A DNA stretch of 55,610 bases from an uncultured Chthonomonas sp. (lineage in GTDB: Bacteria; Armatimonadota; Chthonomonadetes; Chthonomonadales; Chthonomonadaceae). The notes beneath the pieces were generated by a model. That model was not told where the DNA came from, did not search any database, and saw only the letters and a list, made by a program, of their open reading frames with translations. A program made the translations under genes and the position numbers. Below are positions 24,831 to 45,054 of the stretch, piece after piece; positions within the stretch are counted from its first letter, which is position 1; each line of letters begins with the position of its first letter. The stretch covers positions 1 through 55,610 of the forward strand of contig CAIONQ010000063.1 in the NCBI GenBank assembly GCA_903859705.1. Direction: 5' to 3'.

Positions 24831-24874
24831 AAAAACCCTGCGGAACTTGACATTAAGTGTCAGTCCCGCAGGGT
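24831..24874 (-). terminator. Rho-independent terminator after the hopanoid/RND operon
   Basis: The outer stem ACCCTGCGG/CCGCAGGGT and inner TTGACA/TGTCAG pairs span 24835-24874. On the minus strand the hairpin is followed by a T run (24829-24835). It lies about 320 bp beyond the stop of the RND permease gene and just before the P-type ATPase start. Confidence 0.8.
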
Positions 24875-24887
24875 CTTGTGAACCTGC

Positions 24888-25197: not shown

Positions 25198-28100
25198 TTA
25201 TTTATGTTTCAGCCTGGTTGTAACATCATCAAACACGCTGTACAGTACAGGGATAACTACCAGCGTGAGAACAGACGATACCATAAGCCCGCCAATCACA
25301 ACAATTGCCATTGGTGCCCTAATTTCGGAGGCACGGCCAAAGCGCATTGCAACTGGCAGCATGCCCACCATGGTTGCGGTAGTAGTCATCAAAATTGGGC
25401 GCAACCGCTTGGCCCCGGCCTCTACAATGGCTTCTGTTCTTGCCACGCCCCGGGATCGGAGCGTATTGGTGTAATCAAGCAGCAGAATAGCGTTACGGCC
25501 CATGAGGCCGATAAGCATTATGATGCCGATGGCAGATACTAGCGACATCCGCTCGCCGGTAATAACCAACGCACCCAGGGCTCCAATAAGCGCCATGGGC
25601 AGTGTAAACATAATTACAAAGGGCGTGCCCATACTGTTAAATAGAGAGGCCATAACGAAGTAAACCAGAACAATGGCAATAATCAGTGCCGTGGCAAAGG
25701 GAATGGCACTGTCCTTGATGTTCTCTGCATCGCCACCCCAGCTGATATCAATTCCGGCATGCGGAACCGCTTTGATGGCCTTATCCATCTCGGTTTGAAC
25801 GGTGCTGAGCGGGGTATCGGCAGATAGGTTGGAGGTAACCGTTACCAGGCGCTGCCCGTTTTGGCGTTCGATATTGGCCGGGCCCGTTTCCCGTGTTACA
25901 GCCGCAATATCTGATAGGTACACCGGGGCACCCTGAGCATCCACCCCCACAGAGAGGTTGCTGATATCCTCGTACTTCTGCCGCTCTGAGCCAGCGAGCC
26001 GAACGCGAATGGGTATTGCTGTGCCTTCACGCTGCAACGCAGTATCGGTATTTCCAGCTATCGAATCGCGAACAATCGCCCCGGCAAGGCCGGCCGCAAT
26101 GCTGCGTTCGGAAGCCCTGTCTCTATCCACTCTTGCCCGGATTTCTGGCTTCCCATTACGAACCGAAACAGCGGGCGAAAGAACACCCGGGATGGCAGCC
26201 AACCGCTGTTTGAGCTGGCGCGCTACGGCAGCCAGTGCCTCTGTGTCGGTGCCTCTAAGCTGAATCTCTACAGGAGAACTGCCGCCAGCAACGCTGCGTA
26301 TCGCGGCCGTTGAGATATCTGCTCCGCGGCTTTTGGCGGTTTCATTCAGCCTGTTTCGCAGCAATGTGGCCAGTTGCTCGTCCGAATTTCGGCGAAGGCT
26401 ATGGGAACGCCCCGCCAATTGATCCAGCAGGCTTGCCTTCTCTTTAAGGCGGATTGTTAACTGGCCAAACTGCATGCCTTCCTGAGGTATGCTGCCGAAG
26501 CCGCCAATTATCTCGCCCACCGTACTTACAACCGCAAACACATCCGGGTTGCCAGCAACAATCTTTTCAGCATCCTTCACCACCTCTACAGTGGCATCCA
26601 GGCTGGCACCCGGCGGCATCTCAATGTTTACGGCAATCTGCCCCTGATCTGCCCCCGGGATAAAATCAGTTCCAAGCTTGAAATAGGAGAGTGTAAAGAT
26701 AGCCGCAAGGCCAAGTAACCCGGCAAGCAGTACAACGGGCCGGTGGTTGAGGGCAAAGCGTACCAGGTGAGAGTACTTAAGTTCTAGTTTTCGGTACACG
26801 CGCTCAAGAAACGCAAACAGCCCCTTTTCGGGCACCAGCTTTTCTCCTTTTTTGTACCAGCGAGATGCCAGCATGGGGGTTACCGAGAAAGATACCACCA
26901 GTGAGAAGAGGGTAGACACGGCTATTACAAGGCCAAACTGTTTGAAGAAGCTGCCAACAATACCACTCATGAAGGCAATAGGAACAAAAACCACTACATC
27001 TACTAAGGTAGTTGTTATGTCTGCAAATCCTATCTCTGCTCGGCCGTTATAAGCGGCCTCATAGGGCTCTTCACCTTCCTGAATGTGCCGGGTAATGCTC
27101 TCGAGAACAACAATGGAGTCGTCTACCAGAATACCAACCGAAAGCGAAAGGGCAAGCAAGGTCATCTGGTTCAAGGTGAACTTAACCAGGTACATCACCA
27201 GAAACGTGGCAATCATGCAAGATGGGATTGCAAGTGAAACAATTAACGTACCGCGCAGATTATGAAGAAATAGCAAGATAACTGCCATTGCAAGAATGGC
27301 ACCTAGTACCAGGCTGGCGTTCACATCTTCCAGTGCATCACGAACAGTTACCGAATCATCACGCAATGTAACGCGCTTTAGATCCGTGGGCATCTCCGGC
27401 TTTATCTGCTCCAACGCTTCGTTCACGCCATCCACAACGGCAACGGTGTTTGCATCGGAGGCCCTGGTAACGATAACTCCAATGCCATCTCGTCCATTTA
27501 CCCGGTTTATTTGCGTCTGCTGTGCCCTGCCTTCTTCAACAGTGGCCACATCGGCAATCGTTAGGGGTGGAGTGGGGAGGGCGGAGGCACCCGGGGTAGG
27601 GAGGCGGCCAGCGGCGGCAGCAAGAGCCGGGCTAACCAGTTGCACCGATCGTATTTCGTTCAGTGTGCCCAGAGAACCAACCAGGCGTACTGTGGTTTCA
27701 CGGTCACCTCTTACGATCTCGCCAGCCGGCACATCCCTGCTGGCAGCTTTAAGCGAGTTCACAACGTCTTCTATGTTAAGGCCATAGCGCACCAGGCTGT
27801 GGCTATCCACGCTAATCTGAATCTCTTTGAGTTCACCACCCACAACCTGGCAGCCAGCCACACCATCTACTCGCTCAATACGCGGGCGGATAGCCTTATC
27901 TGCAAGCGTTCTCAGCTTTTCTGCACTGAGAGACGCGCTTTCCAGGCCGAAGTACAGAACTGGCAGGGCATTGATATCCAGTTTTGCCACCACTGGCGGG
28001 CGGCACTCGGCCGGTAATTGCGCCCGAATAGAATCTATACGCGTCCTTACATCTGCTACGGCGGATTCTATATTGGTGCCGCCAGCGAAAGTAAGGCTGA

Positions 28101-28371
28101 TGATGGATACATTGGCCTGGGAGCTGGAGAACACATCTTTAACCGAACCTACAGTCCCTACAGCGTCTTCCAGCGGGCGGGTAACCTGCGCCTCCATCTC
28201 TGGAGGGCCAGCACCCGGGAATACTGCTGTAACAACCAGAATAGGGAGATCAACCTTTGGGTTCAACTCGGCGGGCAGGCGAAAATAGGCCTGAACGCCA
28301 AGCACCGCGATGGATGCAAGCGCCATCCAGATTAAAATAGGACGGGAAATTGCTAAACGTGTGAACCACAT
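25198..28371 (-). CDS. RND (HAE1/AcrB-type) efflux permease
   Basis: The protein has 1057 aa, the normal length for AcrB/MexB-like pumps. The start MWFTRLAISRPILIWMALASIAVLGVQAY is the classical first helix. The porter domain (PGAGPPEMEAQVTRPLEDAV) follows. The helix SVGILVDDSIVVLESITRHIQEG carries the DD pair of the proton relay. The second half repeats with RPVVLLAGLLGLAAIF and ends in IGIIMLIGLMGRNAILLLDYTN. The pump uses the proton gradient to move lipophilic substrates out. It begins 63 bp after the adaptor gene in a minus-strand run that starts at squalene-hopene cyclase. It could export hopanoid intermediates or drugs; gene order favours envelope lipids, but the sequence does not show substrate. 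Confidence 0.95.
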   Translation of the reverse strand: MWFTRLAISRPILIWMALASIAVLGVQAYFRLPAELNPKVDLPILVVTAVFPGAGPPEMEAQVTRPLEDAVGTVGSVKDVFSSSQANVSIISLTFAGGTNIESAVADVRTRIDSIRAQLPAECRPPVVAKLDINALPVLYFGLESASLSAEKLRTLADKAIRPRIERVDGVAGCQVVGGELKEIQISVDSHSLVRYGLNIEDVVNSLKAASRDVPAGEIVRGDRETTVRLVGSLGTLNEIRSVQLVSPALAAAAGRLPTPGASALPTPPLTIADVATVEEGRAQQTQINRVNGRDGIGVIVTRASDANTVAVVDGVNEALEQIKPEMPTDLKRVTLRDDSVTVRDALEDVNASLVLGAILAMAVILLFLHNLRGTLIVSLAIPSCMIATFLVMYLVKFTLNQMTLLALSLSVGILVDDSIVVLESITRHIQEGEEPYEAAYNGRAEIGFADITTTLVDVVVFVPIAFMSGIVGSFFKQFGLVIAVSTLFSLVVSFSVTPMLASRWYKKGEKLVPEKGLFAFLERVYRKLELKYSHLVRFALNHRPVVLLAGLLGLAAIFTLSYFKLGTDFIPGADQGQIAVNIEMPPGASLDATVEVVKDAEKIVAGNPDVFAVVSTVGEIIGGFGSIPQEGMQFGQLTIRLKEKASLLDQLAGRSHSLRRNSDEQLATLLRNRLNETAKSRGADISTAAIRSVAGGSSPVEIQLRGTDTEALAAVARQLKQRLAAIPGVLSPAVSVRNGKPEIRARVDRDRASERSIAAGLAGAIVRDSIAGNTDTALQREGTAIPIRVRLAGSERQKYEDISNLSVGVDAQGAPVYLSDIAAVTRETGPANIERQNGQRLVTVTSNLSADTPLSTVQTEMDKAIKAVPHAGIDISWGGDAENIKDSAIPFATALIIAIVLVYFVMASLFNSMGTPFVIMFTLPMALIGALGALVITGERMSLVSAIGIIMLIGLMGRNAILLLDYTNTLRSRGVARTEAIVEAGAKRLRPILMTTTATMVGMLPVAMRFGRASEIRAPMAIVVIGGLMVSSVLTLVVIPVLYSVFDDVTTRLKHK

Positions 28372-28434
28372 GGGCTTTTAGAGGGCGGCTGCCCGGTTAG
28401 AAAATGCACTCAGGCAGAAGTGTTATAGGTGCCG

Positions 28435-29673
28435 TTATGGCTGAGCCGAGCCACCGGTTGGCAGATAGATGCGAGCGGAAATACCGGCACGCAATGCCAC
28501 CGGAGTGAGTATTTTAAATCGTACCTTGATAGAGCGCTGATCTGGCTCTGCAACGGAAGCGATATCTGCCACTGCCACATCGATGATACGGCCTGGCAGC
28601 GAATCTAACGTGGCCTTGAGACGCATGCCGCGGTGAATCCCCGCTATTTGCCGCGTAAGTGCCAGTGCCTCGATGCGGAGATTAGCGATATCAACAACAT
28701 TTACCAGGGGCATTCCTGGCTGAGCCGTTTCGCCCATGCGTGCTAAAACGGAAGCAGCTACCCCATTAATGGGGCAGAGCACCCTCATGCTGTTTACTGC
28801 CGAAAGCGCACCCTCCACCCCCGCAAGCGCCTGCAGCGTGGTGGCATGCGCGGAGTTAACATCCTGGTCTGCCACACGAGCGATGCTATCTCTACCCTTG
28901 CGGGCAGAGGCAAGCCCATCTTCGGCAAGCTTTACACCTCGGATGGCGGCATCAAAATCACTGCGAGCAATGGCTATCTTGAAGGGAATACCATTTGGGC
29001 CAGCCTTAACGCGTTTAACCCCATCCAGAGCCGCCGAATAGTCAGATCTTGAGATCTTTAGCTGTAGGCGTGCTCCTTCCAGATCGTTGCGTGAAACACC
29101 CCCAACCTTATTCAGGGTTTCCAGATCTTTCACCGTGGCTTCTGCACGGTCCAGAACCTGTTTCGCTTTGTAGGCTCCAGATTCGGCTGCTTTCAGGTCC
29201 GCACTATTTTCTGCCACCGCTGCAAGCACGCCCGTTTCTGCCTGAGCCTGCTTGTGCCGGGCCTCGGTTAATGTGCCTGTGGCAGTCAGAATATCGGCAT
29301 CTGCTTTCAATAGCAGCCCGTCTTTGCCAGCAGCTGCCTTCGCCTCCTGGCTTTTGGCCGCACGCACCGCGGCACGCGCTGAGAGCAACTGGGAACGCAT
29401 ATCTGAATCATCAAGCTGAACAAGCAGCTGGCCCTTATGTACTGGCTGGTTTTCGGTAACTAGAACCGCGGTGATACGTGCAGGCATTCGCGCCGTTAGG
29501 GAGGCCTGGTGTTCTGCTGTTACCACACCGGTTAGAAGTGGGCCACCCGGGTTTGAGCCAGTAGGCGCTACGGGCCTGCTTTGCGGCATGGCAACAACCA
29601 TGCATGCAGGCATGGCTATGACTGCTGCAAGTGCTGCCTGTAGAAGTGTGGTTTTCGAAATGGTTGGGAGCAT
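28435..29673 (-). CDS. RND periplasmic adaptor (HlyD/MFP) protein
   Basis: The protein has 412 aa. The N-terminus is hydrophobic (LLQAALAAVIAMPACMVVAM), which acts as a signal or anchor. The lipoyl-like half LLTGVVTAEHQASLTARMPARITAVLV...HKGQLLVQLDD is followed by a long alpha-helical hairpin (residues of about 95-260, rich in Ala, Lys, Glu). The second lipoyl half INGVAASVLARMGETAQPGMPLVNV and a beta-barrel (LRIEALALTRQIAGIHRGM) complete it. The protein links the inner-membrane pump with the TolC channel. It lies 20 bp after the tolC-like stop and upstream of the permease gene, so all three parts of a tripartite pump are present in order. Confidence 0.92.
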   Translation of the reverse strand: MLPTISKTTLLQAALAAVIAMPACMVVAMPQSRPVAPTGSNPGGPLLTGVVTAEHQASLTARMPARITAVLVTENQPVHKGQLLVQLDDSDMRSQLLSARAAVRAAKSQEAKAAAGKDGLLLKADADILTATGTLTEARHKQAQAETGVLAAVAENSADLKAAESGAYKAKQVLDRAEATVKDLETLNKVGGVSRNDLEGARLQLKISRSDYSAALDGVKRVKAGPNGIPFKIAIARSDFDAAIRGVKLAEDGLASARKGRDSIARVADQDVNSAHATTLQALAGVEGALSAVNSMRVLCPINGVAASVLARMGETAQPGMPLVNVVDIANLRIEALALTRQIAGIHRGMRLKATLDSLPGRIIDVAVADIASVAEPDQRSIKVRFKILTPVALRAGISARIYLPTGGSAQP

Positions 29674-29693
29674 ACGGTGAAACTGATTTATGT

Positions 29694-31058
29694 CTACCTG
29701 GCACGGTTGGAGCCAGTGTTTAAGTTGGTTGGAATCCCAGCCAACTTATTCACGATGGGATGGCCTTCTCCCTGCACTGTGGCAAATTCAAGAGAAGCTG
29801 CAATAGCTGATGTCGCCGCCGCTGCGCGCCTCTCACGGGCTGCACGCGCATCGCGTTGTGCGGCAAATACTTCTGTCCCCGAGATTCGCCCAACACGGAA
29901 GGCAGTTTCAGCAACCGTTAGGGCGGTTTCTGCTGCTATAACGGAAGCATTTGCAGCCTTTTGATTCTCAACGCTTTGCTTCCAGTTGAGCCAGGCCCTG
30001 CCCACATCCAGATCTACACCGGTTTCTGCCTGAATCAGCAGCGCTTCAAGCTGGCGAACGCGCGCCTCTGCCTCTTTTACATCGCTCCGTGTTTTGCCAG
30101 CATCAAGAATTGGAATCTTGATTTCAATGCTCGCCGCTGCGTAATGTTCGTGCAGAAGGGCAGTGGGTGTTTGTTCGGTTAGCTGGCCGCGTGCACTTAC
30201 CGAGGGCTGCCCCTGCGATTTTGCAAGTGCTGCCCCGGCTCTTGCAGCAGCCAGGTTAATCTTTATTGTCAGCACCTCCACCCGCTGTGATCTCGCAGAT
30301 AGGATTGCGGCATTTGCAGATACGGGAGGCGCTGCATCGGAGGAGAGGGGAGCATAGTTTGCAGCAGATTGTATTGGGCGGCCGAGCGCCTGGTTGAGTG
30401 CCATATTTGCAAGTAGCACGCCATAACGCGCCTTGCTAAGGCCGGCCTCTGCATCGGCCACCTGTGCCGTTGCCTGATCGAGGTCGGCTGGTTTTCCGGA
30501 TCCAGAGGCAACCAGTGCATCCGTTAGTGATCGGAATCGGCGTGCAGCTTCCACACCAGATTCAGCCGTGCGAACACCCTGCCGAGCCTGTTCGAGATCA
30601 ACAAACAACCTCTGAATTCCAGAACTAATATCAAGTAGAGATTTGCGGTATTCGAGCAGAGCCTGGCTCCGCAGCGCGCTGTAACGTTGTTGGGCGGCCA
30701 CTCCGCCAAAACGAAACAACGGCATTTCGAACAGAATATCCAGGCGGCCAGCCTGAGGTGGAAGTACCGAATTTGGCACAGACCCAGCGAGGGGAAGGGT
30801 TACACCTGGCCCCTGCAGCGTGCCGGATGCCAGGGCGGAAACTATAGGGCGTGCAATGGGCCTATCCTGCTCGATACCTGCGAGGGCGGCCTCGTATGCG
30901 GCTTTTGCAGCACGGGAAGCCGGGGCAGAGGTTAGGCTTGCCGCAATGGCTTCGGGCAGCATAACTGGGGGCTCACCCGGCTGCAGGCATGCGCCAGCAA
31001 CCGCGATGCTGATAAGTAGAAGAGAGGTGCCCAGGCGAGGCAGCCACCGGCACATCAT
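29694..31058 (-). CDS. TolC-family outer-membrane channel protein (hopanoid operon)
   Basis: The protein has 454 aa from the ATG at 31058, which follows a GGGAAG site and lies 4 bp beyond the hpnG-like stop. A second ATG is at 31055. A hydrophobic N-terminus (TSLLLISIAVAGACL) is a signal, with a possible lipoprotein cysteine in VAGAC. The rest shows the two TolC repeats: LPEAIAASLTSAPASRAAKAAYEAALAG, then RSQALLEYRKSLLDISSGIQRLFVDLEQARQ, and AETALTVAETAFRVGRISGTEVFAAQRDARA in the second half. The protein forms a trimeric exit duct in the outer membrane. It is the first gene of the pump part of the operon. Confidence 0.9.
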   Translation of the reverse strand: MMCRWLPRLGTSLLLISIAVAGACLQPGEPPVMLPEAIAASLTSAPASRAAKAAYEAALAGIEQDRPIARPIVSALASGTLQGPGVTLPLAGSVPNSVLPPQAGRLDILFEMPLFRFGGVAAQQRYSALRSQALLEYRKSLLDISSGIQRLFVDLEQARQGVRTAESGVEAARRFRSLTDALVASGSGKPADLDQATAQVADAEAGLSKARYGVLLANMALNQALGRPIQSAANYAPLSSDAAPPVSANAAILSARSQRVEVLTIKINLAAARAGAALAKSQGQPSVSARGQLTEQTPTALLHEHYAAASIEIKIPILDAGKTRSDVKEAEARVRQLEALLIQAETGVDLDVGRAWLNWKQSVENQKAANASVIAAETALTVAETAFRVGRISGTEVFAAQRDARAARERRAAAATSAIAASLEFATVQGEGHPIVNKLAGIPTNLNTGSNRAR

Positions 31059-31062
31059 TACA

Positions 31063-31860
31063 TTACTTCCCTTTCGCAGAGGCATTGGGTTCCATCTCAA
31101 TCGCCGGAATTAGTTGCTTAAGAAACTGTTCCAGTGCAGCGGCAGCGGCTGAAGCACCCTTGCCGAGTTTTAGCAGGCCAGGGATAGCGGAAGGTTTGCG
31201 CAAAAGCTCCATCAAGAGCAGTTTCATGCTGGTGTTGCCATCGGCGCCAGTTACCGCATTAAAATCCAGTGGCAAATCTGCGGTAGCATCATCGGTAACC
31301 GATCTCACCGAGATCCAGGATACTCCGTAGCGCGTTGCGATGGCAGCCGCCGCGGCCGTTTCCATGTCCACTGCATCCGCGCCAGTTTGCGAGGCGCACC
31401 TGGCTTTTTCCTTCGCAGTAAGCAGAACCCGGGGTGCGGAGTACAGCGTGCCTACATGTGTGCCGGCCCGTGCCGATACCAGGTCGCAGGCGAGCCTGGT
31501 AGCTTCTGGATCAGCTTCGAGGGGCTGAGGCAAAAGGGTTCCGTCGGGGCCGGTTCCAATTACATGCGTAGCGATTACCAGATCACCGGGATGCATACCG
31601 GGCCGTAATGCGCCCGCAAAACCACATATAATCAGTAAATTGGGGTGCGCAGCGCGAAGTATCTGATCGGTGGCACGGGCAGCATTTGCTGCGCCTGTGC
31701 CAGATACCGCGATGGTAAGCGTGGGGGTATCCTTCCAGCGCAGTGCCTTTCGCTCCTGCGGAAGGGCAAACAAAATACAGGTCCGCATTGAGGTGCGGAC
31801 CCGTATTACATCTTCATAACCATTATTGCCCGAAGGCACTGGGGGTGGAGTGGCAGCCAA
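31063..31860 (-). CDS. hpnG: HpnG-like hopanoid-associated nucleosidase
   Basis: The protein has 265 aa of the nucleoside phosphorylase/MTAN fold: CILFALPQERKAL, VSGTGAANAARATDQIL, LLIICGFAGALRPGMHPGDLVIA, and the purine-site motif ADAVDMETAAAAAIA. In hopanoid clusters HpnG removes adenine from adenosylhopane to give a ribosyl- or phosphoribosylhopane. The neighbours (shc, hpnH, hpnA, ispH) support that role over an MTA/SAH nucleosidase. The start is uncertain: a TTG at 31860 with AGGA nine bases upstream lies 11 bp after ispH, while the first ATG, at 31788, lacks a Shine-Dalgarno sequence. The C-terminal 35 residues are lysine and alanine rich. Confidence 0.8.
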   Translation of the reverse strand: MAATPPPVPSGNNGYEDVIRVRTSMRTCILFALPQERKALRWKDTPTLTIAVSGTGAANAARATDQILRAAHPNLLIICGFAGALRPGMHPGDLVIATHVIGTGPDGTLLPQPLEADPEATRLACDLVSARAGTHVGTLYSAPRVLLTAKEKARCASQTGADAVDMETAAAAAIATRYGVSWISVRSVTDDATADLPLDFNAVTGADGNTSMKLLLMELLRKPSAIPGLLKLGKGASAAAAALEQFLKQLIPAIEMEPNASAKGK

Positions 31861-31871
31861 AACAAGAAATC

Positions 31872-32795
31872 CTAAACCGCTGCGGTTGCTGGCTCGGGCT
31901 CGTAGGTAAGTACCTTTACCCGTACTGCTTCAACCAGATCCTCGGGGGTAGAAAGGCCAGATGCAAGGCCAACCACTTCTACATCTCTAAACGTTTCGTA
32001 CTGAAGCTCTTCGGCATTCTGAACATGAACTGTGTTAGGATTGTGATGGCGGCAAAGCGCGGCAAGCTCCATGGTATTGGCGCTGGTAGCAGAGCCCACA
32101 ACTATCATGAGCTGCACGCGAGAAGCAAGCTCAACAGCATCATCCTGCCGGTTCTGCACCGGTCGACAAATGGTGTTGATAATACGAATTTCTTTGCACA
32201 TCATCAACATCTCATTAACGATTTCGTTGCAGAGTTCCAGAGCATGGGTGGTCTGGAAAATAACTCCTACCTTGCGAAGTAGCTTGTAGCTTGCCTTCGC
32301 GGTATGCAGCTCTTCGATGGAATCAACCACCAGGGCAGGCTGCTCAAGGGCACCGAGGATGCCTTTAATCTCGGCATGGTTTTCATCGCCAACAATCACA
32401 ACCTGGTAGCCATCGCGCTCCAGCATCTGTGCTGCTTCCTGGGCGCGCAATACAATTGGGCATGTGGCATCTACCACTTCAAGGCCTATTGTTTTGGCCA
32501 TCTGGATTTTTGCCTTGGGCAAACCATGTGCGCGAATAACCATCGTTCCAGAGGAATTTTCGTCGTAATCTTCCTCTTTGCGAAGGCCTTTACCCTCAAG
32601 TTCGTCTGTCACGCGCTTGTTGTGAACCAGATCACCAAGGATGAACACGTCTTCGCGCTCGCTCAGTGCCTGCCGGGTGAGGTTGATGGCCCGCTTCACA
32701 CCGAAGCAAAAGCCAACCTCTTTGGCCATGATTACCTTGCGTTCTTTAATCGCCACAGAATTATCTCCACCGACCGTGTCGGGCTGATTTATCAC
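31872..32795 (-). CDS. ispH: 4-hydroxy-3-methylbut-2-enyl diphosphate reductase IspH
   Basis: IspH is the last enzyme of the MEP pathway. It reduces HMBPP to IPP and DMAPP with a [4Fe-4S] cluster. The protein has 307 aa from a GTG at 32795. The three cluster cysteines are in GFCFGVKRA (30), DATCPIV (112) and NTICRPVQNRQ (210). Conserved histidines occur at 58 (GDLVHNK) and 140 (ENHAEIKG). The first 17 residues are not conserved, so an internal start is possible. It lies between hpnA and the hpnG-like gene on the same strand, which places isoprenoid precursor supply inside the hopanoid operon. Confidence 0.95.
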   Translation of the reverse strand: MINQPDTVGGDNSVAIKERKVIMAKEVGFCFGVKRAINLTRQALSEREDVFILGDLVHNKRVTDELEGKGLRKEEDYDENSSGTMVIRAHGLPKAKIQMAKTIGLEVVDATCPIVLRAQEAAQMLERDGYQVVIVGDENHAEIKGILGALEQPALVVDSIEELHTAKASYKLLRKVGVIFQTTHALELCNEIVNEMLMMCKEIRIINTICRPVQNRQDDAVELASRVQLMIVVGSATSANTMELAALCRHHNPNTVHVQNAEELQYETFRDVEVVGLASGLSTPEDLVEAVRVKVLTYEPEPATAAV

Positions 32796-32837
32796 AGGCT
32801 GCCCGCAGGCAGGTTAATGGATTTTCTGGGAGTGGGC

Positions 32838-33833
32838 TCAGCGCGCCATCCCGTTTTTTTGAAACCATCGAACAGCGCGTTCCAGGGCATCCTGAACAGG
32901 AGACTGGGGCAGGCCAAGCTCGTTAACCGCGCGCGAAGCATCGAAATACATGTGATGCCGTGCCATCTTCACGCCTTCGAATGGGTGTGCCGGTTCCTTG
33001 CGGAACAAGCTGGCAAGCAGGTTTTCTATGCCTACAAAGGTGTATGCAACACCATATGGCATCTGAACTGCGGGAGCGCGCCTGCCTGTTAGGGCGGCCA
33101 GCATCTCCAGCATCTCCTTCATAGAGGTATTGCGGTTACCAAGTATATAACGCTCGCCAGATACACCGCGTTCCGCAGCAAGGAGCATTCCCTGCGCCAC
33201 ATCATGCACATCAACCAGGTTGAGGCCCGTGTTAAGGTATGCGGGCAGTTTGCCATTTAGAAAGTCGACAATAATCTTGCCGGTTGGTGTGGGCTTGATG
33301 TCGTTTTCGCCAACCGGGGTAGAGGGGTTTACAATAACCACAGGAAAGCCTTCCTGTGCGAATTTTACCGCCTCTTTTTCGGCAAGAAACTTGGATCGCT
33401 TGTAGTGCCCGATCATATCTGCTTCGGTTACTGGCGTGGTTTCTGTTCCGGAAGAACCATCGGGCGGGATGCCCAGTGCACCCACAGTACTGGTGTAAAC
33501 TGTGCGCTTAATGCCGGAGCGGCGCGCAGCCTCCAGAATGGAGCGCGTGCCGCCGACATTAGAATCGTACAATTCTTGTGGGTTTGCAGACCAGAGGCGA
33601 TAATCGGCGGCTATGTGGTACAGGGTATCACAGCCATCCATCGCTCTTGCCAGCGAATCTGGATTTCGCAGGTCCCCATCCACAATCTCAAGTAGAGAAG
33701 GGTTGAGCTCCAGCAGATTATCTTTTCGGCTGGCCGGGCGCGCCAGAGCACGCACCGGAGTTCCCCCCTCCACAAGAAGGCGAGCAACGTGGTACCCCAC
33801 GAAGCCTGTGCCGCCGGTAACAAGAGCCGTCAC
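32838..33833 (-). CDS. hpnA: Hopanoid-associated sugar epimerase HpnA
   Basis: The protein has 331 aa of the NAD-dependent epimerase/dehydratase (extended SDR) family. The Rossmann motif TALVTGGTGFVGYHVA is at the N-terminus; GDLRNPDSLARAMDGCDTLYHIAADYRLW and the YKRSKFLAE (YxxxK) catalytic motif follow, with VNPSTPVGENDIKPTPTG later. This is the HpnA pattern. The GTG at 33833 is chosen because GAGG stands six bases upstream and the family starts there; a longer frame overlaps the hpnH stop. The role in hopanoid side-chain chemistry is inferred from association; the exact step is not settled. Spacing to hpnH is 25 bp. Confidence 0.92.
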   Translation of the reverse strand: MTALVTGGTGFVGYHVARLLVEGGTPVRALARPASRKDNLLELNPSLLEIVDGDLRNPDSLARAMDGCDTLYHIAADYRLWSANPQELYDSNVGGTRSILEAARRSGIKRTVYTSTVGALGIPPDGSSGTETTPVTEADMIGHYKRSKFLAEKEAVKFAQEGFPVVIVNPSTPVGENDIKPTPTGKIIVDFLNGKLPAYLNTGLNLVDVHDVAQGMLLAAERGVSGERYILGNRNTSMKEMLEMLAALTGRRAPAVQMPYGVAYTFVGIENLLASLFRKEPAHPFEGVKMARHHMYFDASRAVNELGLPQSPVQDALERAVRWFQKNGMAR

Positions 33834-33858
33834 GCGATCCTCGTCTCTGCTGGCCCTA

Positions 33859-34860
33859 TTACTTAGACATCGACCACACAGCAAGCTGAATCTTGCCGTT
33901 CATGGTTTTCATTGCTTCGGATACAGCGCTGTGCTCAAATCCGGAGTGCATTTTGCAGTTCTGGCACTTCGGATCTTTTCGAGACTCCCAGTACTCCCAG
34001 TTGGTTTTCTCCCAGAATGTTTTCCAATCCGGAATAATCTCTTCGCCAATCAGGTAGCAGGGCGCCTTCCAACCGGTGGGTGTGAAGTTTACTGTAGACC
34101 AGGGAGCGCAGGGCAGATCGCGCAGGCCAGCGGCAAACTCCAGGAAGAACGGGGTGGCGTTCACCTTGTACTTAGTAGAGAAATCTCGGATGCGCTTGAA
34201 CTTTTCGTGGATTTGATCGATGGAAAGGAAGATATCCGTGTCAACGCTCTCATACTCGTATCCGGGGGATATGAGGATGCCGTTTGCCTTCAGCTCATCT
34301 ACCATCTTACATAGCTGCTCTACCTCTTCCACGCTGGTCTCTTTAAACACCGTTGTGTTAAGGTAGGTATAGTAGCCTTTTTCGCGTGCCTTGCGTACCA
34401 TCTCGATTGCATGATCGAACACGCCCTTGCGGTTGCACACGTAATCGTGCGTTTCGCGCATGCCATCCAGGTGAATCATCAAGAAGAGATGTGGGCTGGG
34501 CGGGATCTTATCAAATACTTTCTCTTCCAGCTTAAGCGCGTTGGTGCAGAGAATAATGTACTTGTTGCGGGCAACCAGGCCATCAATCAGCTCTTTAAGT
34601 TCCGGGTAGAGGGTTGGTTCTCCGCCGCAGATATTAACAATAGGAGCTCCGCACTCTTCCACTGCTTTAAAGCAAGTTTCCAGCGGAATTCTATCCTTCA
34701 GCTTGCCAGTATGGCGCTCCACTGAACATCCGAGGCATGCCAGGTTGCATGTGTAGAGCGGCTCGAGCATAAGAACCGTAGGATAACGATTCTGACCACT
34801 CTTCTCCATTTTAGAGCGATGCCGGCTCTGCGCCATCATAAAGCCTATGGGAAAACGCAT
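33859..34860 (-). CDS. hpnH: Adenosylhopane synthase HpnH (radical SAM)
   Basis: The enzyme joins an adenosyl group from S-adenosylmethionine to diploptene to give adenosylhopane, the first step of C35 hopanoid side chains. The protein has 333 aa. The radical SAM cluster motif is C38-C42-C45 in YTCNLACLGCSVER. NICGGEPTLYPEL and MIHLDGMRETHDYVCNRKGVFD follow, both hallmark HpnH stretches. The C-terminal region has further cysteines (LPCAPWST, APCYLIGEE, KCQNCKMHSGFE). The start MRFPIG matches the usual N-terminal length. The gene lies 136 bp after the squalene-hopene cyclase stop and is followed by hpnA. Confidence 0.96.
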   Translation of the reverse strand: MRFPIGFMMAQSRHRSKMEKSGQNRYPTVLMLEPLYTCNLACLGCSVERHTGKLKDRIPLETCFKAVEECGAPIVNICGGEPTLYPELKELIDGLVARNKYIILCTNALKLEEKVFDKIPPSPHLFLMIHLDGMRETHDYVCNRKGVFDHAIEMVRKAREKGYYTYLNTTVFKETSVEEVEQLCKMVDELKANGILISPGYEYESVDTDIFLSIDQIHEKFKRIRDFSTKYKVNATPFFLEFAAGLRDLPCAPWSTVNFTPTGWKAPCYLIGEEIIPDWKTFWEKTNWEYWESRKDPKCQNCKMHSGFEHSAVSEAMKTMNGKIQLAVWSMSK

Positions 34861-34996
34861 ATGTGTAACAGTCCTTACTGGCCAGCCGCCAATCCCCTGT
34901 CAGAAGTGGCGGGATAGACTGGTCTGGAAATGAATAGTGCGCGAAAGTTGCTGTAAGTATACCTCAGGGCACCCATCGCAATTCGGATGGGCAAGA

Positions 34997-37114
34997 CTAA
35001 ACCTCGAGGTTAGCAAACCGATCATTCGATGCCGTAACCCTGTCTTTAAGGGCAGGCGCCTCCCCGGTTGTGAACTCATGGTATTGAGCCAGAGCCCACA
35101 GTGGAAAGTAGTGTCTGTAGTAGTGGTATCGGAGGTAGAACACACGCGGGAAGCCCGTTCCAGTGAACCACTCTTCTTCCCACGTACCTTCGGAATCTTG
35201 ACCATTTATCAGATAGTCGAGGCCGCGTTGAACGGCGCTGCTGCTAACATCCCCGGCATTGAACAGGCCCATAAGCGCCCATGCCGTTTGAGATGGCGTG
35301 CTGGGGCCGGTTGCCTTTGGATGCCCGGGATCGTAGGATGCGGCGGTTTCGCCCCATCCGCCATCCTCGTTCTGAACCGCATGCAGCCATTTAACGGCGC
35401 GTTGGATGCGCTCAGACTGCATATCTTCACCAATGCGTGCCAGACCTCGTAAAGTCTGCCAGGTTCCATATATGTAATTTACGCCCCAGCGGCCAAACCA
35501 ACTGCCATCTTCTTCTTGTTCCCGATAAATATAATCAAGAGCGCGGCGCACGCGAGGATCACTCGGGCCAATGCTGTAGAACGAGCACATTTCCAGCGTT
35601 CGCGCCGTAATATCTGCAGAAGAAGGATCCAGCATGGCATTGTGGTCGGCATAAGGCACATACTGAAATAGCGTTTTGTTATTGTTCTTATCGAAGCTGG
35701 CCCATCCGCCATCTTCGTTTTGCATCGCGAATACCCAGTCTATACCCTTGCGCATGGCTTCTCGGGCATGTTCTGGGGCTTCCGACCAGTGCTCACCGCC
35801 CGGGCAGTACGTCTTGTAAAGGGCCATAAGTACCATCACGGTGTCGTCGACATCCGGATAGAACTCATTCTCCATTTCAAAGTACCAGCCTCCAGGCTCG
35901 GTATCCGGGCATTTAACCGACCAATCGCCTTTGCGGGTTGTCTGCTTAGAGAGCATCCACTCGGCGGCCTTTTGCATGGCCTCTGTATCTGCCGGGTAGC
36001 CACTGTCAACCAGAGAGTTAACTACAAGTGCTGTATCCCAAACCGGGCTAACACAGGGCTGCAGGCGCAGGGTTTCCCCATCCTCCATTTCAAAGGCGGC
36101 AAGTTCAGCCAGCTCTTTTGAAATTGCCGGATGGTTGTCTGGCAGGCCCATACACTTGTAGGCCATGATGGCGTGGGTCATTGCAGGGAAAATAGCACCA
36201 AGGCCGCCGCTGTTCTCTTCCCGATCCAAAAGCCACGCCAATGAGCGGTTCAGGGCTTTCTTCCGGAAAGGTTTAACAGGGCTCGCGTCGTACATCTTGA
36301 GCAAACGATCAAAGATGAGGAACACGTTTTTCCAGGTAATTGCTTTTTTATCCCACTCCAGGCGCATGCGTTTGCGATCTCGGCCGCCAACAAATAGCTC
36401 ATCGATGTGGGCGTGGTTGGGGATCGGGCGATGTGGCCTACTTGCATTCATCACGGCCAACGGCACCAGAATGGCGCGCGACCAGGAAGACATGTTGTAT
36501 ATGTTAAAGTAGAACCACTTCGGCATCAGGATGGCTTCCGGAGGAATCGTTGGAACGCCATGCCAATCGTACTGGCCGAACATGGAGAGGTATAGCTTGG
36601 TAAATGTATTGCAGTGGGTAACACCGCCCTGTGCCAGGATGGATCTTCTGGCGCGGCGCATAAATGGCTCGTTGCCAGTGTAACCTGCCAGCTTGCAAGC
36701 AAAGTAGGCTTTAACGGAGGCGCTTACATCCGGCGGGCCACCATTGTAAATGGGCCAGTAACCATCTGAATGTTGTTTGGTTTTAATGTAATTAGCGAGT
36801 TTACGAAATTTTTGTGGCTCTTTACGGCCTAAAAACTGCAGCAGAAGAATATATTCGCTCTCAAGGATGGTATCGCCTTCCAGTTCTGCTACCCAGTAGC
36901 CATCAGGCTCCTGGCGATCCAGAAGGAAGTCCTGGGCGGAACGGATGGCGGTACGAACCGAATCCAGGGACACTAAATCCGAAGCGCGGGTTCTTGCTGT
37001 AGTTTGGGAGGCGCTCGCAGTTCCGGTTACATCCGCGTGCGTGTGATTTTGCGTTTTGGTTCTAGTGCTCAACGATTCACCGTGTAACTGCAGATCCAAC
37101 CTCAGGGTCTGCAT
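34997..37114 (-). CDS. shc: Squalene-hopene cyclase
   Basis: The enzyme cyclises squalene to hopene and hopanol at the membrane. The protein has 705 aa from the ATG at 37114; a TTG at 37138 is the alternative. The catalytic acid motif DVDDT is at residues 421-425. Many QW-type repeats are visible: FLLDRQEPDGYWVAELEGD, TKQHSDGYWPIYNGGP, VFAMQNEDGGWASFD, IYREQEEDGSWFGRWGVNYIYGTW, VKWLHAVQNEDGGWGE and LINGQDSEGTWEEEWFTGTGFP. The first 45 residues are variable. It opens the hopanoid operon, with the promoter at 37467-37496 and a leader of about 345 bases. The leader (37115-37460) holds no ORF I would support. Confidence 0.97.
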   Translation of the reverse strand: MQTLRLDLQLHGESLSTRTKTQNHTHADVTGTASASQTTARTRASDLVSLDSVRTAIRSAQDFLLDRQEPDGYWVAELEGDTILESEYILLLQFLGRKEPQKFRKLANYIKTKQHSDGYWPIYNGGPPDVSASVKAYFACKLAGYTGNEPFMRRARRSILAQGGVTHCNTFTKLYLSMFGQYDWHGVPTIPPEAILMPKWFYFNIYNMSSWSRAILVPLAVMNASRPHRPIPNHAHIDELFVGGRDRKRMRLEWDKKAITWKNVFLIFDRLLKMYDASPVKPFRKKALNRSLAWLLDREENSGGLGAIFPAMTHAIMAYKCMGLPDNHPAISKELAELAAFEMEDGETLRLQPCVSPVWDTALVVNSLVDSGYPADTEAMQKAAEWMLSKQTTRKGDWSVKCPDTEPGGWYFEMENEFYPDVDDTVMVLMALYKTYCPGGEHWSEAPEHAREAMRKGIDWVFAMQNEDGGWASFDKNNNKTLFQYVPYADHNAMLDPSSADITARTLEMCSFYSIGPSDPRVRRALDYIYREQEEDGSWFGRWGVNYIYGTWQTLRGLARIGEDMQSERIQRAVKWLHAVQNEDGGWGETAASYDPGHPKATGPSTPSQTAWALMGLFNAGDVSSSAVQRGLDYLINGQDSEGTWEEEWFTGTGFPRVFYLRYHYYRHYFPLWALAQYHEFTTGEAPALKDRVTASNDRFANLEV

Positions 37115-37466: not shown

Positions 37467-37496
37467 ATTCTATCTGTACGCAGTTGTCTTTGTCAA
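37467..37496 (-). promoter_or_regulatory. Sigma-70-type promoter of the hopanoid operon
   Basis: On the minus strand TTGACA (37491-37496) and TAGAAT (37467-37472) stand 18 bases apart. It is the only good match I found upstream of shc. I found no strong promoter by eye in the gaps downstream, so it may drive all eight genes down to the terminator at 24831. Confidence 0.7.
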
Positions 37497-37571: not shown

Positions 37572-38819
37572 TCAACCAAGATGGCTGGGATCGTTTGCCA
37601 TTTCTGGAATAACACCAAGGCGCTTCAACTCGCTAACAAGCTTGGAAGCATCGGCCAGCACAATCTGGGCAAATCGCTGAGTTTCTGGATCTGATTTGCG
37701 CCTCAGCAGGTGAGCAGCTTTACACAGGGATGTGATGGGGCCAAGGAGCACATCAACGTTTACAAGTTCCTGAGGCAGCATGCTGGCCGCCTGCTCAAAG
37801 CTAACTCGCCCGGCATGGTCCTCTTCAATACCATCTTCGGCATGTGCCGGAGAATGAAAATCGAACGAAGTGGCGAACTCAACCGGTGTTTCTGGCGCGT
37901 TGGGATCGTATACGTTGGTTGGTGCCGGCATAGAAGATATAGGTTGCGTTGTAACCGTGTCAGAAGTGCGCGTAGGGGTAAGCGTGCGGCCCTCGCGTGC
38001 ATACTGCTCTTCTATTTCGGTAAGTTCTCGGCGGATCGCGACATAGAGGGGAGTTGAGTCCATCTCTTTATCTGCCGAAACGCCGTAATCTTTCTTGTTG
38101 ATGCCGTAGAACATCGGATCGGTAGTGGCGTAGTTAACAAACATTACCGCGATAAATTTCTGGAATACATTGCGGTCAAACATGTACTTGGAAGCATAGT
38201 TTGCGTTATCGCGAACGCTCATTATAACTTCCTGAAACAGAGATACGATGAAGCTGCGCGGATCCATGCGCGATGCGGTTGCGGCATCCACATAGGCATA
38301 GTCGAAGAAATACAGCAGGTTAGCTGTATCCGTATGACCTTCGGTTTCTGCCACGGAGCTGAAGACGTTGAGCTTCATCATGCTATCCAGGTTGCGACGA
38401 GGATAACCCTTGTGCACCATGGCCAGAGAGTAATCTTTAAACTCGCTGTAATCTGTGCCAAGGAAGTGCGCGTGGCCGCTTAGGATCTTATCATGAAGTT
38501 CGGTGAGGCGCCGCAGTAAGTTGCCGCGGGCATCATTAACAATCTCCATCATCTCTTCGCGGATGGGATCATCTTCTGGAAACAGATCAATTGTTTCAAA
38601 GGTGGTGCGGATAACCGCAAAGTCATTGAGGCCGTCTTCCAGACACGGATAAGCGATGCCGACAATCAGGTTATCCGGAATCTCTTCAACGGCATCTGCA
38701 TTCTTGATTCCGCTATTGGGATCCACGAGCGCGTAAAAGCGGTTGTTGGTGCGCAGGCTCTTGATGAGGGCTACTTTGCGCGTATCCTCATTGTTACCAT
38801 TCGAACTTAGATCTGACAT
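37572..38819 (-). CDS. Hypothetical 415-aa soluble protein
   Basis: I do not recognise this protein. It has no signal peptide and no membrane segment. The N-terminal 260 residues are helical and aromatic rich (FETIDLFPEDDPIREEMMEIV, ANLLYFFDYAYVDAATASRMDPRSFIVSLFQEVIMSV, FQKFIAVMFVNYATTDPMFY). A Pro/Thr/Ser-rich linker of about 60 residues follows, then a C-terminal helical part (LVNVDVLLGPITSLCKAAHLLRRKSDPETQRFAQIVLADASKLVSELKRLG). Codon use resembles that of the neighbouring genes, so it is a native gene. It has its own unit between the hopanoid promoter and a secreted protein gene. Confidence 0.8.
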   Translation of the reverse strand: MSDLSSNGNNEDTRKVALIKSLRTNNRFYALVDPNSGIKNADAVEEIPDNLIVGIAYPCLEDGLNDFAVIRTTFETIDLFPEDDPIREEMMEIVNDARGNLLRRLTELHDKILSGHAHFLGTDYSEFKDYSLAMVHKGYPRRNLDSMMKLNVFSSVAETEGHTDTANLLYFFDYAYVDAATASRMDPRSFIVSLFQEVIMSVRDNANYASKYMFDRNVFQKFIAVMFVNYATTDPMFYGINKKDYGVSADKEMDSTPLYVAIRRELTEIEEQYAREGRTLTPTRTSDTVTTQPISSMPAPTNVYDPNAPETPVEFATSFDFHSPAHAEDGIEEDHAGRVSFEQAASMLPQELVNVDVLLGPITSLCKAAHLLRRKSDPETQRFAQIVLADASKLVSELKRLGVIPEMANDPSHLG

Positions 38820-38905
38820 AGTTAGATAGTGCCCTGTTATTCCTCAAGAGTTCCTGATCTCACCGGGCTTTGCTGGCCCTTCTGATCGCGTATCTGGCGG
38901 TATGT

Positions 38906-39574
38906 TTACTTCAGGGTGAAGTGGTAAGAGGCCCCATAATACATGTCGCCACCAACGCAGTCCGCCTTCACCCGCAAGTTTTTCAGGGTTACAAACCCTG
39001 CGCTGAAGTTTGCTCTGCGCCGGTAAAGCTCTGCATTCAGGAAAACCCTCCTGGGCAGCCCGGCTTCCAGGCTTACAAACGCCCCTCCAATTGTACCGGA
39101 ACCCAGGCCCGTGCTGAGCGTGAGTCGCCGAACAACTCGCATCTGCCGTGAAGAGAGCGGAATCCTCTGACTGCCCGCCACGTAAAACGCTGCGTGCTGA
39201 GTGCCTGTGCAGGTAATATCCTGAATACCAAGTACTAAAGACGGCAGGTTTTGAAGTGTAGGCAGCGGATATTGCACGCCGGCAGCCCAGCGTTTTTTTG
39301 GATCCTTTGCAGATTCAAACCGGCTAAATTCCATCTCAATGCCATCGGCCGAAGAAGTCGAGAGCCACGTATAGTCGGTTTTGAATGGGCCAACCATTAC
39401 TTCGGTTTTAATGCTGCTTTCCGATAGCGTAGTTCCGCTGGGCGCCAGTACTATACGGTCGGCCGTGGCAGCACCACCGCTGAAGGCAAGAAGAGCTGCG
39501 GCTATCGCACACGGGCGAACGCCGAACAAAGGTTGGGAGAGCCGACAGTTACGGCTGCCTTTGAGTGCGTGCAT
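38906..39574 (-). CDS. Secreted protein, possible small outer-membrane beta-barrel
   Basis: The protein has 222 aa with a signal sequence (CAIAAALLAFSGGAATA). The mature part alternates hydrophobic and polar residues, as in beta strands: IKTEVMVGPFKTDYTWL, KRWAAGVQYPLPTLQNLPSLVLGIQDIT, GSGTIGGAFVSLEAGL, RVFLNAELYRRRANFSAGFV. It ends in YHFTLK, similar to the aromatic-plus-charged ends of outer-membrane barrels. No specific family is recognised. It lies between an unknown gene and the aminotransferase on the same strand, with 41 bp to the aminotransferase stop. Confidence 0.65.
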   Translation of the reverse strand: MHALKGSRNCRLSQPLFGVRPCAIAAALLAFSGGAATADRIVLAPSGTTLSESSIKTEVMVGPFKTDYTWLSTSSADGIEMEFSRFESAKDPKKRWAAGVQYPLPTLQNLPSLVLGIQDITCTGTQHAAFYVAGSQRIPLSSRQMRVVRRLTLSTGLGSGTIGGAFVSLEAGLPRRVFLNAELYRRRANFSAGFVTLKNLRVKADCVGGDMYYGASYHFTLK

Positions 39575-43438: not shown

Positions 43439-45054
43439 TTGGCAGGCGTGCCTGCGGGCCAGAAAATAATCGTGCCTACAAAAACCGAATGGCAGTTGGA
43501 GCAGGCGTTGCGCTGTGCGCAGCACTAATGGCTCCCGGCTGCAACCGTGGTGGCCAGTCTGGCGCTAAACCTCCCGTTTCGGCCGAAACAGCGAGCGCAA
43601 AAACAGAAATTCAAGTTTCTTCCAGTGCTGCAGCGATTGGTACAATATCTGAAACGTTGAACATAACCGGTTCTCTGGGTGCGCTGAATGATGTAACTGT
43701 GGGTATCAAGAACCCGGGCAAAATCATTGCTGTTTATGCGCGCGAAGGTGACCATGTGCATGTTGGGCAGGTACTGGCTCAGCAAGACACAGTAGATATC
43801 GAATCACAGAACCGGCAGTCGCGCGCGAATTTACGTGTGGCCGAAACTCGCCTTGAGCAGGCGAAAGCCGCCTACGGCCAGGCTGTTACCAGCCTGAGGA
43901 TCACAGATTCCACTACGGCCGCCGCCGTGAAGCAAGCCCAGGCTGCCTTGAAGGCATCGCAGGATTCCGTTACGCTTATTCGCCGTGGGGCACGTACACA
44001 GGAGCTTGAGCAGAGTAAGCGTGCAGTGGAAAGCGCTCAAGCAGATCTGGATTCAGCGCGAGCAGATGCGGCACAATCCACTTCCGATTTGCGCCGATAT
44101 ACCTCGCTTCACAACACACGCGCTATTTCTGATCAGCAATTGGAGCAAGCGAAAACCGTTAAAACGGCAGCAGATGCACGTGTTCGCTCTGCTTCCTCAC
44201 GTCTGGAATCCGTTAGACAGGCGCTAAGCCTTACCCGGGAAGGTGCGCAAGCAGAAGATATCAATCGTACGCAGGAAGCTGTGAATCAGGCCGATCAAGC
44301 ACTGAAAACTGCGGAGAGCAACCGCGCCACAGTTGAAATACGTAAAGCCGATGTTGAAAGCGCACGTGTTGGGATTGATGCCGCAAATTCTGCGGTTGAT
44401 ACAGCCAGAGCGCAGCTTGCGATAGTTGAGCAAATGCTGAAAGATAGCATCATTCGATCTCCTATCGATGGGGTTGTTGCCGAGCGAAAAGTTGAGCCAG
44501 GCATGCAAGTGGCAGCCGTTAAACCGGATGTGATGCGCGTTATCGGTTTAGACTCACTTTACTTTGATGGTCTTCTTCCACAGAGCCACATCGATGAAGT
44601 TAAAGTTGGTATGCAGGTAACCGTGCTTGTGGATGCGCTCACCGCTCACCCGCTTAAAGGCACCATCGCCCGCATATTCCCGGTAGCTTCGGCCTCTGCC
44701 CGTAGCTTTACTGTGCGCGTAGCAGTTAACAACACGGAAGGCCTGCTGCGTCCACAGATGTTTGCACGCGGAACCATTACTCTTGGCACACATAATCGCG
44801 CGGTACTGATTCCGCGCGAAGCGGTGCTGAACCTTACCGAAAATGGCACAAAGCAAACCGGTAGCGTGTTCATTATCAAAGATGGCAAGGCAGCAAAGAA
44901 GGATGTTACAATCGGTTATTCCAACTTCATAAGTGATGAGATAATCAGCGGAGTTAATCCATCAGACGAAGTGATAACTGTTGGCCAGGGGCAGGTGCAG
45001 GATGGCGATGCCGTGAAATCCGGTTCGGCCACTCCTGCAGCACAACAGCCATAG
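43435..45054 (+). CDS. Periplasmic adaptor (HlyD/RND-MFP) lipoprotein
   Basis: The protein has 539 aa and overlaps the TolC stop. A signal with lipobox LMAPGC near residue 36 suggests a lipid anchor. The lipoyl half (ITGSLGALNDVTVGIKNPGKIIAVYAREGDHVHVGQVLAQQD) is followed by an unusually long helical region of about 250 residues, with repeats such as QAKTAYGQA-like and LTREGAQAEDINRTQEAVNQADQALKTAES. The second lipoyl half DSIIRSPIDGVVAERKVEPGMQV and a beta-barrel (YFDGLLPQSHIDEVKVGMQVTVLVDA) end it. It should bridge an inner-membrane transporter to the TolC channel. The transporter is not encoded here. Confidence 0.9.
   Translation: MIGRRACGPENNRAYKNRMAVGAGVALCAALMAPGCNRGGQSGAKPPVSAETASAKTEIQVSSSAAAIGTISETLNITGSLGALNDVTVGIKNPGKIIAVYAREGDHVHVGQVLAQQDTVDIESQNRQSRANLRVAETRLEQAKAAYGQAVTSLRITDSTTAAAVKQAQAALKASQDSVTLIRRGARTQELEQSKRAVESAQADLDSARADAAQSTSDLRRYTSLHNTRAISDQQLEQAKTVKTAADARVRSASSRLESVRQALSLTREGAQAEDINRTQEAVNQADQALKTAESNRATVEIRKADVESARVGIDAANSAVDTARAQLAIVEQMLKDSIIRSPIDGVVAERKVEPGMQVAAVKPDVMRVIGLDSLYFDGLLPQSHIDEVKVGMQVTVLVDALTAHPLKGTIARIFPVASASARSFTVRVAVNNTEGLLRPQMFARGTITLGTHNRAVLIPREAVLNLTENGTKQTGSVFIIKDGKAAKKDVTIGYSNFISDEIISGVNPSDEVITVGQGQVQDGDAVKSGSATPAAQQP

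Follow-up and report, generated by a model that had tools for sequence, protein, structure and literature searches.

A tripartite HAE-1 RND pump co-inherited with hopanoid synthesis in Armatimonadota, a candidate exporter of hopanoids to the outer membrane

The window, a 55,610-nucleotide stretch of DNA from a member of the Chthonomonadaceae in the little-studied Armatimonadota, carries a compact block in which genes for hopanoid synthesis run directly into genes for an outer membrane factor, a periplasmic adaptor and an RND permease. Comparison with related genomes indicates that the three latter genes, which predict a dedicated tripartite pump of the HAE-1 type, have been inherited together with hopanoid synthesis and did not come to lie beside it by chance. 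The favoured candidate role of this pump is to carry hopanoids, bacterial equivalents of cholesterol, to the outer membrane. In the proposed mechanism, SHC, HpnH, HpnA and an HpnG-like protein would make C35 hopanoids, with IspH feeding in the isoprenoid precursor; the dedicated pump encoded alongside would pick up finished or nearly finished hopanoids at the inner membrane's outer leaflet and bring them to the outer membrane via the adaptor and TolC, a task that falls to HpnN in Proteobacteria. We regard the case for a single unit that makes C35 hopanoids and carries them outward in HpnN's stead as evenly balanced. The broader proposal, that this Armatimonadota HAE-1 clade is a dedicated hopanoid exporter working through an adaptor-TolC conduit and a non-orthologous replacement of HpnN, may hold but is put forward tentatively.

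All eight genes of the original prediction, which described a hopanoid operon continuing into a complete RND pump, were recovered at their predicted positions on the minus strand, in the order shc-hpnH-hpnA-ispH-hpnG-tolC-adaptor-RND (Table 1). SHC and HpnH both score above the cut-offs of their equivalog models, the combination that marks a C35 hopanoid (BHP) operon, and the SHC translation shows a DVDD motif (DxDD). The shc reading frame is open from a TTG at 37138 (ATG at 37114) and that of tolC from a TTG at 31100; hpnA and hpnH overlap. The hpnG-like product does not reach the curated HpnG cut-off (TIGR03468, 140 against 187 bits), which makes the cautious label given to it in the original prediction apt; its superfamily and position fit, and it is probably a divergent HpnG.

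Table 1. Features of the hopanoid-pump block, listed in the direction of transcription.
Feature	Position	Strand	Evidence
Promoter-like site upstream of shc, TTGACA-18-TAGAAT	37467..37496	-	11/12 matches; consensus match only
shc, squalene-hopene cyclase	34997..37114	-	TIGR01507 754 bits, cut-off 431
hpnH, adenosylhopane synthase (radical SAM)	33859..34860	-	TIGR03470 350 bits, cut-off 225
hpnA, hopanoid-associated sugar epimerase	32838..33884	-	TIGR03466 455 bits, cut-off 368
ispH/lytB, HMBPP reductase (isoprenoid precursor supply)	31872..32795	-	TIGR00216 259 bits, cut-off 188
hpnG-like nucleosidase/phosphorylase	31063..31860	-	PF01048; TIGR03468 140 bits, cut-off 187
tolC, outer membrane factor (OEP/TolC)	29694..31058	-	PF02321 3e-34
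Periplasmic adaptor (MFP), HlyD-type	28435..29673	-	PF16576, PF13437, RND_mfp 90 bits
HAE-1 type RND permease, hopanoid-associated clade 'A'	25198..28371	-	PF00873 811 bits
Intrinsic terminator, end of unit	24831..24880	-	GACCCTGCGGGACTGACACTTAATGTCAAGTTCCGCAGGGTTTTTT; 66-base stretch folds at -34 kcal/mol

The gaps within the block are as short as had been claimed (4-136 bp): the stop of hpnG at 31063 and the ATG of tolC at 31058 are 4 bp apart, and shc and hpnH are separated by 136 bp. A promoter-like site and a terminator corresponding to the claimed single promoter and single terminator were also located. In a scan of the region, the site upstream of shc was the sole minus-strand promoter-like site with 11/12 matches, and just one other minus-strand site had at least 10/12, at 25640 inside the RND gene. 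Between RND and the next gene, at ~24880-24831, there is a strong terminator, a hairpin with a T-run; the pattern scan overlooked it because of its long loop, and the totals of that scan for promoters and terminators showed no excess over shuffled sequence. A promoter and terminator of its own before tolC would have spoken against a shared unit, and no convincing one was found ahead of tolC in the window sequence. One hairpin, at 31807-31774, is terminator-like by score, but its T-run is poor and it falls within the coding sequence of hpnG. The block from shc to RND is presumably co-transcribed as one unit.

To our knowledge, HpnN in Proteobacteria is the only established means by which hopanoids reach the outer membrane. 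HpnN is the precedent for RND-type hopanoid transport (review PMC8277102; PMC12583986), and this MMPL/HAE-3 protein is described as acting with neither an adaptor nor an outer-membrane channel (PMC6394551). The window permease scores 22.6 bits against the HpnN model TIGR03480, far below the cut-off of 751.85, and no protein above that cut-off was found in the relatives (0/41) or in the hpnH-positive genomes (0/15). Weak TIGR03480/PF03176 matches, considered as HpnN hidden elsewhere, were rejected, being either ORFs of ~811-893 aa (about one per genome) or HAE-1 permeases; of the former, the 834-aa one in G000 reads as SecDF. The placing of an AcrB-type pump where HpnN would be is in keeping with the absence of HpnN from every genome examined. 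Both proteins belong to the RND superfamily, are encoded with hopanoid genes and have a proposed role in moving hopanoids from the inner to the outer membrane; HpnN, however, is HAE-3 and is described as acting alone, whereas the window permease is of the HAE-1 type and has an adaptor and a TolC encoded beside it.

The junction between the two halves of the block is conserved. tolC-adaptor comes after hpnG in every one of the 17 genomes of the Chthonomonadaceae (f1), with insertions in G004 and G007, in both genomes of the order's second family (f2) and in two of its third (f3; G028 and G030), and the complete block, this linkage included, is present in G212 of a distant family. The linkage is thus kept among relatives, where its loss would have told against the original prediction. 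The pump can be called part of the hopanoid operon as far as tolC-adaptor is concerned, which stays by hpnG; the RND gene is often elsewhere in the genome. Within f1, the hpnG|tolC boundary is never broken (0/17), against 9/14 for shc|hpnH and 5/14 for adaptor|RND, although Fisher tests on these counts ignore relatedness and are descriptive only. The pump might have come to lie downstream of hpnG by chance in an ancestor and been kept there by slow gene-order change. The pump genes are apart from the hpn genes in most of f3, in f9 and in f32, and the upstream asnC-aat-orf-orf-shc block is likewise conserved with no obvious function, both of which suit such a neutral origin. Yet hpnG-tolC is unbroken while other boundaries in the same genomes often break, and the co-loss and the match between clade and hopanoids described below extend to genomes in which the genes lie apart. 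The phylogenetic profile therefore already weakens this explanation, which has little chance of being right.

The clade-A RND permeases form one clade (n=34, support 100) drawn from HpnH-positive genomes only. They are found in three lineages, between which the rpoB tree puts hopanoid-negative ones: f32 stands beside hopanoid-negative G214, and the hopanoid-negative G033 and G180 adjoin the order. Consistently, the adaptor tree separates the pumps of hopanoid-positive and hopanoid-negative genomes on one branch (support 100). The sole member of the order without shc and hpnH is G024, nested in f3 by rpoB; it is also without tolC, adaptor and clade-A RND and has retained a paralogous RND (paralog B), which occurs in f2 and f3 genomes and does not track hopanoids. 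Within the order, the tolC ortholog is missing only in this genome. The independent contrasts on the rpoB tree number only four, with 3-4 in favour and 0 against (p = 0.125). Clade-A RND was not detected in three genomes that carry hpnH, namely G028 and the incomplete G014 and G215. The conserved linkage, the tracking of hopanoids and the co-loss in G024 together argue for a dedicated, co-inherited pump and against chance neighbours. The seven genomes of f36 have shc and hpnH with neither a clade-A pump nor HpnN, so that the pump is not universally required. The suggestion of an alternative hopanoid route to the outer membrane accordingly stands in part: the absence of HpnN, the co-occurrence and the co-loss fit it, while the transport itself is deduced from these patterns and f36 has neither pump.

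The RND permease is a full-length AcrB-type protein (PF00873 over residues 4-1047) that aligns end to end with the structures of AcrB, MexB and MdtB, the last being its closest solved relative. It falls below the cut-off for the CusA/CzcA heavy-metal (HME) RND proteins (TIGR00914, 424 against 701 bits). The proton relay residues D407, D408, R971 and T978 (AcrB numbering) are kept; the order and f32 have Arg in place of K940. This Arg was rejected as the mark of a dead or special pump, since the corresponding MexB version is reported to be fully active (PMC8300642). The cognate partners, an HlyD-type adaptor and OEP/TolC, adjoin the RND gene, and the three products are predicted to assemble into one pump. 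MdtABC and AcrAB-TolC likewise have a full-length ACR_tran permease, a DD proton relay, an HlyD-type adaptor and a TolC-type channel. Unlike them, the window pump is operonic and co-inherited with hopanoid synthesis; its adaptor α-hairpin has ~207 residues versus 76 in AcrA and MdtA, Arg stands for the relay Lys, and the Phe-rich drug trap of AcrB is mostly absent.

The usual substrates of HAE-1 pumps are drugs, bile salts and solvents. The main rival explanation is that the window pump expels toxic amphiphiles as MdtABC and AcrAB do, with hopanoids as its environment and not its cargo; the coupling would arise from a need of TolC-dependent efflux for an outer membrane of low permeability, ordered by hopanoids. 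The nearest solved RND is indeed MdtB and the relay is that of an ordinary HAE-1 pump. In Akkermansia, exposure to bile brings a joint rise of hopanoid and RND genes (PMC7671984), and a 2015 study points the same way, as far as it is cited in PMC8144471. Such a partnership alone, however, leaves unexplained why hopanoids are tracked by one RND/adaptor clade and not by paralog B, which G024 has kept, and why tolC-adaptor is placed exactly after the side-chain gene hpnG. We consider it unlikely, though a serious contender.

AcrB-type pumps also export terpenes, and the pump, in place of delivering the final lipid, might clear excess squalene/diploptene, or the side-chain intermediates adenosylhopane and ribosylhopane, that would disturb the inner membrane. 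A monoterpene RND transporter has been described (PMC6394551), and hpnG, whose enzyme acts after adenosylhopane, has the strongest linkage. Overflow export would not need the co-loss, though, accumulation of intermediates is not known, and C30/C35 hopanoids are membrane lipids and not soluble toxins; this reading appears improbable.

The sterol transporters BstABC of Methylococcus capsulatus were found by the same genomic logic, and their sterol binding was measured (PMC10942540). In both cases, genes for cyclic triterpenoid synthesis lie beside those of a transport set that spans the envelope and has an RND protein among its parts (PMC10942540); BstA, however, is MMPL/HpnN-like, and neither BstB nor BstC is an adaptor or a TolC protein. 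The heterocyst glycolipid exporter DevBCA-HgdD of Anabaena is also tripartite and TolC-dependent with a membrane lipid as cargo (PMC6161253), the cargo being putative in the window, but it is ABC-driven rather than RND-driven and carries a different lipid. A literature search found no paper that deals with Chthonomonas hopanoids or with hpn clusters containing RND pumps, and a paper on Acidobacteria hopanoid clusters mentions no transporter.

The hopanoid makers examined are without HpnN, and the three-gene set is a concrete candidate for their hopanoid transport. We know of no earlier HAE-1 pump whose cargo is a structural membrane lipid; if the proposal is true, this would be the first, and the role of AcrB-type pumps would widen from poison export to membrane building. 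Chthonomonas is a cultured relative group, G024 provides a natural negative control and paralog B an internal one.

Two further features were tried as hopanoid-specific and rejected. The positions of the drug pocket depart from AcrB, but those of hopanoid-negative relatives do so just as much, and the length of the adaptor hairpin follows lineage, not hopanoid status. In the AlphaFold model of the adaptor, the helices are predicted at pLDDT 86-98.

The original prediction that a hopanoid gene cluster continues into the genes of a complete RND pump is borne out by the gene order, the matches to protein family models and the close spacing of the genes. The product of the fifth gene scores below the cut-off of the HpnG model and is therefore correctly named HpnG-like. 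The best promoter-like sequence on the minus strand, judged by its match to the consensus (TTGACA-18-TAGAAT), is located 5' of shc; the single other minus-strand site that matches in 10 or more of 12 positions lies within the RND gene. On the same strand, a long-stemmed terminator that includes a T-run (about 24880-24831) lies 3' of the RND gene and sets it apart from a P1B-type ATPase gene. Because of the lone strong promoter-like site at one end and the terminator at the other, transcription of the block from shc to the RND gene as a single unit fits the sequence.

Genes of the hopanoid-pump block in the window, in order of transcription
Gene	Position	Strand	Assignment	Remark
shc	ATG 37114 to 34997	minus	SHC	curated model, over cut-off
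hpnH	34860-33859	minus	HpnH	curated model, over cut-off
hpnA	33884-32838	minus	HpnA	curated model, over cut-off; overlaps hpnH
ispH	32795-31872	minus	IspH	curated model, over cut-off
hpnG-like	31860-31063	minus	HpnG model	140 bits; cut-off 187
tolC	ATG 31058 to 29694	minus	OEP/TolC	start 4 bp past hpnG stop
adaptor	29673-28435	minus	HlyD-type	
RND permease	28371-25198	minus	ACR_tran	full-length

A perfect 14-bp hairpin is present at the hpnG coding start (31774-31807, minus strand). It is apparently retained through compensatory changes in the compared genome G001 (locus L039, about 10460-10740), in which the ispH-hpnG gap contains a tandem array of four units of roughly 60 bp. Two ORFs 5' of shc (37572-39574, minus strand; 415 and 222 residues) are conserved across the order Chthonomonadales, where the order asnC-aminotransferase-orf-orf-shc is kept. 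Pfam searches with both ORFs returned zero matches, and the 415-residue ORF also had no NCBIfam match; the pair is a candidate older piece of the hopanoid neighbourhood.

The linkage was surveyed in Armatimonadota by mapping the hpn and RND loci of relatives with profiles made from the window proteins. The genomes compared are mostly MAGs and all the evidence is genomic; the nearest named genomes are Chthonomonas and Chthonomonadaceae MAGs of the same order. Within the window's own family (f1), hpnG is succeeded by a co-oriented tolC in 17 of 17 genomes, and the adaptor gene comes next wherever the contig extends that far. Three small ORFs in G004 and two M16 peptidase genes in G007 (L088 972-3901, block otherwise conserved) lie between hpnG and tolC. 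The f1 chromosomes are not frozen, because shc is parted from hpnH in 9 and RND from the adaptor in 5 of 14 assessable genomes while none of the 17 shows a break at the hpnG-tolC boundary. Fisher tests give p of about 1e-4 and 0.012 for these two contrasts, respectively, values that are descriptive because the genomes are related. The conserved core is therefore hpnH-hpnA-ispH-hpnG-tolC-adaptor, and the f1 genomes with a non-adjacent RND gene carry a clear RND of the hopanoid-associated clade (clade A, below) elsewhere. The block is complete in both genomes of a second family of the order (f2), and the full eight-gene order recurs in G212, from another family of Armatimonadota. In the third family of the order (f3), hpnG-tolC-adaptor is retained in G028 and G030, and the pump genes are elsewhere in seven genomes with a locus visible past hpnG (G018, G021, G022, G023, G026, G027 and G029). 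Membership of the whole pump in the hopanoid operon is thus variable, the RND gene often being located elsewhere in the genome.

Of 291 Armatimonadota genomes, 43 have an HpnH that scores over the cut-off and one more has a fragment. Trees were of a quick type, with SH-aLRT as the only support. The RND tree was built from the best matches, those of hopanoid-negative genomes included. It contains a single clade of 34 permeases (clade A, support 100), 34 of 34 from HpnH-positive genomes; the lower-scoring matches outside the tree may include a hopanoid-negative member. Clade A comprises the order, families f9 and f30 (G036, G213 and G212) and family f32 (G216-G218), and was not detected in G028 or in the incomplete genomes G014 and G215, all of which carry hpnH. 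On an rpoB tree its carriers fall in three separate lineages; hopanoid-negative G214 is sister to f32 (support 100), and hopanoid-negative G033 and G180 adjoin the order. The RNDs of the latter two cluster with paralog B, a second RND outside clade A that is also present in genomes of f2 and f3. The same three lineages group together in the HpnH tree, with family f36 far apart. One branch of the adaptor tree (support 100) divides hopanoid-positive from hopanoid-negative pumps, the choice of sequences being partly dependent.

G024 is the sole member of the order without hpnH; shc is also absent (completeness 96 percent), and only in this genome of the order are tolC and the adaptor missing. The RND that it carries is paralog B rather than a member of clade A. 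Since rpoB nests G024 within f3, the absences read as a joint secondary loss of hopanoid and pump genes, for which paralog B serves as internal control. Independent pairs on the rpoB tree give 3-4 for the association and 0 against, of 4 (p = 0.125), too few pairs to reach significance.

HpnN, the hopanoid RND of Proteobacteria (PMC8277102, PMC12583986), scored over the cut-off of its curated model in 0 of 41 relatives and 0 of 15 HpnH-positive genomes tested. The weak matches fall into two kinds, HAE-1 permeases and ORFs about 811-893 residues long; the ORF of this kind in G000 was inspected and is SecDF. By the curated model, HpnN is therefore truly absent from these genomes. The absence is not peculiar to pump carriers, because f36 has shc and hpnH but neither HpnN nor a clade-A RND. 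At the f36 loci (L158-L164), shc and hpnA accompany an hpnH whose product is far diverged; at one of them (L161, genome G242), a different RND gene is found about 3 kb 5' of shc.

The window permease can be aligned over its full length with AcrB-type structures, and its nearest solved relative is MdtB. The proton relay is intact save for AcrB K940, replaced by Arg (residue 959). Among clade-A permeases, Arg occupies this position in f32 and, wherever the sequence covers the site, throughout the order, and the aligned close relatives have Lys; MexB with this substitution was reported to be fully active (PMC8300642). The Phe-rich drug trap of AcrB is mostly missing in clade-A permeases, but to an equal degree in hopanoid-negative relatives, and the substrate therefore cannot be read from the pocket. 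The window adaptor is predicted to form a hairpin that includes one helix of 100 residues (pLDDT 86-98); the hairpin segment spans 207 residues, compared with 76 in AcrA and MdtA. Armatimonadota RND adaptors have very long hairpins of discrete, lineage-specific lengths (191, about 208, 218, 254 and 381 residues), as if set by lineage-specific periplasm width.

The pump is, in our weighing, probably dedicated to hopanoid biology. Delivery of hopanoids to the outer membrane in the place of HpnN is its single likeliest role, to which we give about an even chance. The lipid would be made at the inner membrane by SHC and HpnH/HpnG, the permease would pick it out of the outer leaflet of that membrane, and an adaptor-TolC conduit in complex with the permease would carry it outward across the periplasm. 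Every element of this reading has a precedent: besides HpnN, these are the BstABC sterol transport set, identified through similar genomic reasoning and backed by binding assays (PMC10942540), and the tripartite lipid exporter DevBCA-HgdD (PMC6161253). The chief rival, which is less probable, is an efflux pump that expels toxic amphiphiles and depends on an outer membrane ordered by hopanoids; in its favour, RND and hopanoid genes go up together in Akkermansia under bile (PMC7671984).

The window also contains a second tolC-adaptor pair (41675-45054, plus strand) with no adjoining transporter gene, followed by aconitase-type subunit genes (45511-47600); the corresponding place in G001 (L039) holds an opposite-strand tolC. 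A LolA-like outer-membrane lipoprotein-sorting protein is encoded at 49964-50887 (plus strand).
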